From positions 1 to 51,359 of the forward strand of contig JAPOUT010000117.1 of NCBI GenBank assembly GCA_026708545.1: DNA of 51,359 nucleotides, read 5' to 3'. Shown in pieces: positions 46,339-48,678 of the stretch (positions are counted from its first letter, which is position 1; every line of letters starts with the position of its first letter). Source of the DNA: Hyphomicrobiales bacterium (lineage in GTDB: Bacteria > Pseudomonadota > Alphaproteobacteria > JAPOUT01). The notes under the pieces are model-generated. The model searched no databases. It had not been told where the DNA came from and saw only the letters and a program-made list of their open reading frames with translations. The position numbers and the translations under genes are program-made.

Positions 46339-46482
46339 TTCTGATTCTCGTGCGGGCGCCGAAAAAAGCATCGCTTGTGCGGCTTGGCCGCCGCATCTTG
46401 TTCGACCTAATCGAAAAATACGGAGGATCCGGAGCACGACTTCCTGCCACCTTTCCCAAAGAACGCTACGAGAGTGTAACCA

Positions 46483-48198
46483 ATGAGCCTTGCCATTTCC
46501 CGCCAGTTTAACGCGAAACCTGCCCACGAAGTCAGGCGGCAGGAAGGATGTAGCCCGACCGCCTTTGCCGATACGGTTGGGCAAGCCTATGTTGCCGAAA
46601 AATCAGCAATTCACCGAAAGGACCACGGGCTTTATCTGACCCCGCCTCCCGTTGCCGCATTTATGGCTGCAATGATTACCCCGCGCCCGAAAATACGACT
46701 CCTCGACCCGGCAGCCGGAGCAGGTATCCTGCTTTGTGCGGCCGTGGAAGCCTTGGTGAAATCACCGCAACCGCCCGGAAAAATTGACATCGTTGCCTAT
46801 GAAATAGACCCGGAGTTAGCATGGCACCTGCGGCAGGTATTGGATAACCTGACAGTTTGGGCAAAGACCAAAGTCGTGAAGGTAAAGGTAGATATTCGGT
46901 GTTGCGACTTCATTTTGTCCGAAGCCAAATTCTTGAACAGTGGCCTGCATGCCTATGATGCCGTGATTATCAATCCGCCGTATTTCAAGGTTGGAAAGAA
47001 TGATCCCCGCGCAGTTGCCGCCCGTTCTGTCGTGCATGGGCAGCCAAATATCTATGGCCTGTTCATGGCTGTATCCGCAGCCCTGCTTGTTCCTGGCGGG
47101 GATTTTGTGTCCATCACCCCGCGCAGTTTTGCGTCCGGCCCATATTTCAGGAAGTTCCGAGAGGAGTTTTTTGCCATGATGCGGCCCATACGCACCCATG
47201 TTTTCGGTTCACGCAAAGACGCTTTCAGCCGCGATGAAGTGTTACAGGAAAATGTAATCCTGCATGGTATCCATCATGTCGGCTGGCACGAGGGCAAGAA
47301 CAAACACTGCATGACGGTATCCAGTAGCGCCGGGCTATCCGATCTTGGCACCGCTCATGCGTTTGAAATATACCTGTCCCATGCTCTTGATGCAGCCAAT
47401 CTGGCAACCCCGTTCCGCTTGCCAGTGTCCCGTGACGATACGGCAATCCTTGATGCAATAGACGGTTGGGGCGGCAACCTTAAAGCCTATGGCATGGAGA
47501 TTTCTACAGGCCCTGTTGTGCCGTTCCGTGCCACCGAATTTCTGTCCGAAAAAGCCAATGGCGTTACCGTTCCCCTGATATGGATGAACCATGTTCGAAC
47601 AATGGATGTACATTGGCCCAGTGGAGTGAAAAAGCCACAGTGGATTGAACATAGGCCGAAATCCATCCGCCTGTTGGTCACGAACAACAACTATGTAATC
47701 CTGCGCCGTTTCAGCGCCAAGGAAGAGCACAAGCGCTTGACTGCTGTGCCCTTGCTAGCCGGACAACTGGCCGGAGACATGATCGGGCTAGAAAATCACC
47801 TCAACTACATTCACCGCCCCGGCGGACGGTTGGAAGAAGTCGAAACACTTGGGCTGGCCGCACTCTATAACAGTGCCCTGATGGACGGATATTTCCGCTG
47901 CGTGAATGGTAACACGCAGGTGAGCGCAACAGAATTGCGGGCAATGCCCCTGCCCCCGCTAATCGAGATAAAAGCATTGGGCAGGCATCTGCAATCGGAG
48001 CCGCATAATATCGGCATGATTGATGAGTTAGTGAAAGAACTGGCCGCAGGAAGTAGCATAACGAATAAGAGGGAAGCGTGGATAAGAAAATTTTACCGAA
48101 GCACAATAGGTGTTGAAAGCACTGGACTTGCCCTCGACCCAACAAAACCACATAGCCGCACTCACGTTGCTGGCCTTGGTGGAATTGGGGCCAGATGA
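46483..48198 (+). CDS. N6-adenine DNA methyltransferase of the PstI/BsuBI type
   Basis: This is a 571-residue DNA methyltransferase. The SAM-binding motif LLDPAAGAGIL lies near residues 73-83 and the catalytic NPPY at 164-167. The N-terminal KDHGLYLTPPPVAAFMA is the usual start of Eco57I/PstI-type enzymes. The downstream neighbour is the remnant of a PstI/BsuBI restriction gene, so the target may be CTGCAG, by inference. M.PstI-type enzymes have about 500 residues. Here the frame runs about 40 codons into the restriction gene without similarity, suggesting a lost stop codon or frameshift near 48050-48080. No defect is visible in the catalytic core, so the enzyme may still methylate DNA without a restriction partner. 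Confidence 0.85.
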   Translation: MSLAISRQFNAKPAHEVRRQEGCSPTAFADTVGQAYVAEKSAIHRKDHGLYLTPPPVAAFMAAMITPRPKIRLLDPAAGAGILLCAAVEALVKSPQPPGKIDIVAYEIDPELAWHLRQVLDNLTVWAKTKVVKVKVDIRCCDFILSEAKFLNSGLHAYDAVIINPPYFKVGKNDPRAVAARSVVHGQPNIYGLFMAVSAALLVPGGDFVSITPRSFASGPYFRKFREEFFAMMRPIRTHVFGSRKDAFSRDEVLQENVILHGIHHVGWHEGKNKHCMTVSSSAGLSDLGTAHAFEIYLSHALDAANLATPFRLPVSRDDTAILDAIDGWGGNLKAYGMEISTGPVVPFRATEFLSEKANGVTVPLIWMNHVRTMDVHWPSGVKKPQWIEHRPKSIRLLVTNNNYVILRRFSAKEEHKRLTAVPLLAGQLAGDMIGLENHLNYIHRPGGRLEEVETLGLAALYNSALMDGYFRCVNGNTQVSATELRAMPLPPLIEIKALGRHLQSEPHNIGMIDELVKELAAGSSITNKREAWIRKFYRSTIGVESTGLALDPTKPHSRTHVAGLGGIGAR

Positions 48199-48678
48199 TC
48201 CATGGAAGAACGCACGGCGCATCCGTTGTGGCGTGTCTAATGAGATTATGGCCTTTATGGCTGAACGCTATCAGCAGGTATACAAGCCCAACACACGCGA
48301 AACCGTCCGCCGCCAAGTGTTGACCGGTTTGTGCAGACCAAAGTGGCAGACTACAACCCCTTTGAGCCCAACCTGCCTACGAACAGCCCGCGCGCTCATT
48401 ACGCTATCAGTAAATCCACCCTTGCCGTTCTGAAAAGCTTTGGCACAAAACAATGGAACGATGCCGTTGCCATCTTCATTGCCGAGCATGGTGCATTAGC
48501 CAAAACCTACTCGAAGCACCGTTCCACGGACAAGTTAGTGCCAATTACCCTGCCAGACGGTATGCGCGAGTTTAAAAAACACGCGAACGACATTTCCTAG
48601 AAAACAGAAGTCTGGCTGGCCGATATCCCCGACCACATGGTCCATTTCAATGGTGATAGGTTTCTGGGGCCGAGGTGA
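48078..48678 (+). pseudogene. Inactivated PstI/BsuBI-type restriction endonuclease gene
   Basis: Three frames together rebuild a PstI/BsuBI endonuclease, about 200 of the usual 315-325 residues. A likely GTG start at 48078 (VDKKILPKHN) needs one added base near 48108 to join LKALDLPSTQQNHIAALTLL. A second one-base loss near 48325 joins RETVRRQVL to VADYNPFEPNLPTNSP. After TLPDG (about 48555) the family's next 120 or so residues, holding the catalytic PD...ExK region, are missing. The text resumes with REFKKHANDIS. Codon 48598-48600 is TAG where the family has tryptophan. The intact tail KTEVWLADIPDHMVHFNGDR then reads on to TGA 48676-48678. The gene cannot make an active nuclease. Confidence 0.88.

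Follow-up and report, generated by a model that had tools for sequence, protein, structure and literature searches.

A BsuBI/PstI-family restriction gene in pieces beside a conserved methyltransferase gene in a Hyphomicrobiales genome, and similar losses among its relatives

The stretch of DNA analysed here (the window) is the 51,359-nucleotide contig JAPOUT010000117.1 from a Hyphomicrobiales bacterium (GCA_026708545.1). It very probably carries a Type II gene pair of the BsuBI/PstI (SdaI-like) family in which the restriction endonuclease gene, R, was inactivated by at least four changes and a missing start codon and the methyltransferase gene, M, was retained. The decay of R with the survival of M is a textbook, accepted route to solitary methylases, to which this locus adds a clear case, an ordinary member of that known process. 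A first-pass annotation had proposed a PstI/BsuBI-family restriction gene ruined beside a kept methyltransferase. The recovery of R homology in pieces, with lesions that are defined by comparison with intact relatives, bears this out.

M (46483-48198, on the forward strand like all features given below) is read as a protein of 571 aa and is predicted to be an Eco57I-like N6-adenine DNA methyltransferase, with Pfam matches to Eco57I (1.8e-9) and N6_Mtase (5.5e-7). Its nearest relative is the M of a Rhodospirillales MAG, at 55-57% identity. The gene is open across approximately 530 codons with no stop and no frameshift, the SAM motif and NPPY are retained as had been claimed, and 80 of the 80 near-invariant columns (at least 90% conserved among other M proteins) are unchanged. 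The usual M stop is absent. The frame extends 115 nt past the R start position to a TGA at 48196-48198, as against mostly 0-17 nt beyond it in near relatives. The family-like portion of M ends at about residue 532. Beyond it the frame continues for some 36 codons into dead R sequence, and since these extra C-terminal residues are out-of-frame R sequence, the tail has no family likeness. The overrun was not put down to a base loss, because the M-to-R spacing and frame equal those of near relatives without any indel. Judged from its sequence, M is a well-conserved, open methyltransferase gene with an overrun C-terminus and its product may still be active. A short 53-codon ORF directly upstream of M (46350-46511) matched no family, and nothing convincingly like it was seen next to related M genes.

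The remnant of R occupies 48078-48678, with homology spanning 48086-48675 in pieces. We placed these pieces against 59 intact R proteins of relatives and by tblastn of one intact R, which aligned as three pieces. The R N-terminal domain, PF17728, was found in two frames, at 48110-48430 (E 5.3e-19) and at 48331-48597 (E 3.4e-12), and the last 44 profile positions of PF06616 were found in the tail, above the cut-off but in broken frames (E 9e-9). These matches agree with PstI/BsuBI as the protein family of R. In relatives, the start codon of R lies nine codons ahead of model position 20, and the codon at this place in the window, 48083-48085, is TAA and not a start codon. A nonsense codon, TAG, lies near the N-terminus at 48107-48109. 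The first open piece of the helix-turn-helix, DNA-recognition domain (48110-48322, the stronger PF17728 match) is followed by a one-base loss, where intact relatives have two codons and the window has the five bases 48323-48327. The second open piece (48328-48564, the weaker match) aligns by tblastn over 48319-48564 with residues 84-164 of intact R. At the junction 48564-48565 the same alignment passes from residue 164 (48564) to residue 279 (48565). This is an in-frame deletion of 114 codons, or 342 bases, and its size is also 114 residues when measured against each of four intact relatives (L030, L031, L034 and L036). The deletion removes the conserved nuclease centre of R (PDVV...EAVTSHGP...KR). 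Another nonsense codon, TAG at 48598-48600, takes the place of the conserved Trp of (A)WETEVW, and it is followed by the last 25 residues of R and the stop codon (48601-48678), a tail that shares 79% identity across 24 residues with the R on an Acinetobacter plasmid.

Four separate changes thus stand, as the first-pass annotation had counted, including the TAG at the family Trp, but one of them had been mis-typed. Of its two one-base losses, the one near 48325 was recovered at 48323-48327, and the one near 48108 is the TAG of 48107-48109. The deletion of the nuclease centre and the recognisable tail are both present, with sizes of 114 and 25 residues compared to the approximately 120 and 26 that had been given. 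The lack of an R start codon at the family position and the loss of the normal M stop are additional to that account.

The typing of the change near 48108 was decided by the reading frame around it. The family N-terminus is M-S-K-I-E-E-A-Q-E-I-L-K-A-L-G-L-P, and the window in the frame of 48110 reads stop(48083)-E-N-F-T-E-A-Q-stop(48107)-V-L-K-A-L-D-L-P, matching the family consensus SKIEEAQEILKALGLP with the frame already in register from 48086. The 10-residue score near 48108 was +3.5 for the in-register frame versus -7.1 for the frame that a frameshift would require; random 10-mers had a median of -13.5, a 95th percentile of -4.1, and a 99th percentile of 0.8. Intact R aligned by tblastn over 48086-48367 across one TAG. 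The M-to-R anchor distance is 91 nt in the window (remainder 1) and 82-94 nt in near relatives (also remainder 1), for example 91 nt in L049, 88 nt in L030, and 94 nt in L031 and L048. Since spacing and remainder equal those of near relatives, no net indel is needed here. On these grounds, a frameshift at 48108 was dismissed in favor of a nonsense codon.

The locus resembles Type II systems of the BsuBI/PstI/SdaI family (PF17728 plus PF06616 with an Eco57I-like M) in its family domain matches, in having an N6-adenine methyltransferase of the matching M family next to R, and in the tandem overlapping M-R order, with a spacing and frame that agree with the nearest relatives. It differs in that R is broken and without a nuclease centre and M overruns its normal end. 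Homologous M genes (33-39% identity) with R behind them on the same strand are found on Hydrogenophaga pDSM1084, Nitrosospira plasmid 2, and Acinetobacter pYH16056-4, but these pairs are plasmid-borne and their R genes are annotated as intact. Among plasmid and chromosome relatives, R overlaps or adjoins the end of M. The relatives show that M and R originally formed a complete pair with overlapping genes. The two genes would once have overlapped in one operon, and R would then have been inactivated by the nonsense codon at 48107, the one-base loss at 48323-48327, the 114-codon deletion, the nonsense codon at 48598, and the absence of a start codon. R was probably lost first, since the chromosome would have been open to attack by R had M gone earlier, and M probably survives for this reason and because it may still be active. 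The R remnants deviate at four of the 40 conserved positions that they still cover, compared with none of 80 for M; among the 59 intact R proteins, nine have four or more deviations at those 40 positions. Given this small substitution load, decay of R looks recent relative to divergence from known relatives.

We surveyed relatives of the pair by scanning genome contigs and keeping the 80 closest relatives of M. M is in one open frame in all 80, and R is complete next to M, or fused to it, in most. In 12 of the 80, R is wrecked beside an unbroken M: it is reduced to an end piece in L033, L039, L053, and L083, internally deleted or left with a middle piece only in L038, L046, and L051, and split by a frameshift in L044, L047, L056, L060, and L072, where simple frameshifts could include assembly errors. 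Two loci where contig ends cut R (L030 and L049) are not among the 12. On the M tree, the window and these 12 relatives represent at least 12 separate events, seven without simple frameshifts. Loci in this survey were ranked by M score, which favours intact M, and the numbers are small. When we searched with R first, all 20 loci with full-length R had an adjacent M, none of them paired an intact R with a broken M, and one locus, L155, had both genes broken. Post-segregational killing is known to predict an asymmetry of this kind, with R lost and M kept (reviewed in PMC3874152). We also looked for a common pattern in the end points of R deletions among the relatives, and the cases were too few to claim one.

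Other arrangements were seen at related loci. M and R form a single frame of approximately 810-990 codons in L062, L063, L079, L081, L103, L105, L107-L109, and L152, from hosts including Nostoc, Myxococcus, and Chloroflexota, and both domains were over the cut-off in the two that were tested (L062 and L105). M is fused in frame with the final 28 residues of R in L033 (3674-5665), the remaining R being deleted. A second, decayed M gene lies in fragments near an intact M-R pair in L043 (6818-8653). An R C-terminal remnant in a genome of the same class (L176, 1-1688) has no recognisable M in the 3 kb examined. In two Bacteroidota loci of the 80 (L071, 5534-7141; L078, 4911-6521), the gene after M joins the R N-terminal domain to an OLD/RecF-like AAA ATPase (AAA_15, AAA_21) and has no nuclease; it is possibly a different effector that is guided by the R recognition domain and paired with M. 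Comparison with one genome of the same genus gave no insertion boundaries, as it lacks conserved counterparts of the flanking genes, and no relative of the locus was found among viral contigs.

The only solved relative is SdaI, an enzyme that cuts at the 8-base sequence CCTGCAGG. There is good evidence for a decayed R next to a retained M, but the CTGCAG specificity that had been assigned to the system is not implied by the family, because SdaI cuts CCTGCAGG and neither site is avoided. In a 489 kb sample of the genome, we sought avoidance of both and found none: CTGCAG occurs 103 times versus 110 expected, ranking 39 of 64 palindromes, and CCTGCAGG occurs 17 times versus 17 expected. The raw whole-genome count of CTGCAG was 505, and 618 in a reversed control. 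The sampled genome bears no trace of long-lasting restriction at CTGCAG or CCTGCAGG. Avoidance is reported to grow with the residence time of a restriction-modification system (PMC4687349), so R either was resident here only briefly or has another site.

It is possible, though not the history we favor, that both genes are decaying and that M, having lost its stop, is a later casualty in a dying cassette rather than a solitary methylase in use. The overrun of approximately 36 codons, the lack of avoidance at the candidate sites, and L155 with both genes broken are consistent with this; the unchanged near-invariant columns of M and its uninterrupted frame argue against it. That the lesions are sequencing or assembly artefacts is very unlikely. 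The assembly is a 139-contig draft and one lesion is a one-base loss, for which an assembly error is conceivable, but such errors would not typically produce two nonsense codons, the lack of a start, and a deletion of 342 bases, M and the flanking genes are clean, and 12 relatives sequenced in independent projects also combine an unbroken M with a wrecked R. Least credible is a functional shortened R protein, such as a DNA-binding regulator. The N-terminal domain is better kept than the rest of R, and L071 and L078 bear it on another protein, but in the window a one-base loss divides it, a nonsense codon lies near its beginning, and it lacks a normal start codon.

Inactivation of R with retention of M would make M a solitary methyltransferase as defined elsewhere (PMC4176335, PMC3874152), a conserved N6 methyltransferase with no functional R close by. 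By the PF06616 profile, the broken copy was the only R of the family found in the 91%-complete assembly, in the neighbourhood or beyond, and the conserved methyltransferase motifs of M are intact. Unlike the usual solitary methyltransferases, the R remnant is still visible in the window and its origin by decay is therefore directly documented. Corrupted restriction genes are common in REBASE (PMC4687349), and a 2014 survey of 43 pan-genomes concluded that solitary methylase genes rarely arise by R decay (PMC4176335). Contrary to that view, the endonuclease of this family might be lost so often, with no defects in M, that M is repeatedly domesticated and kept in its own right once its partner is gone, although we consider this doubtful. 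The recurrence within the M-R family is a more useful result than the single locus, since the window and the 12 relatives provide a countable set in one family for testing how solitary methylases arise.
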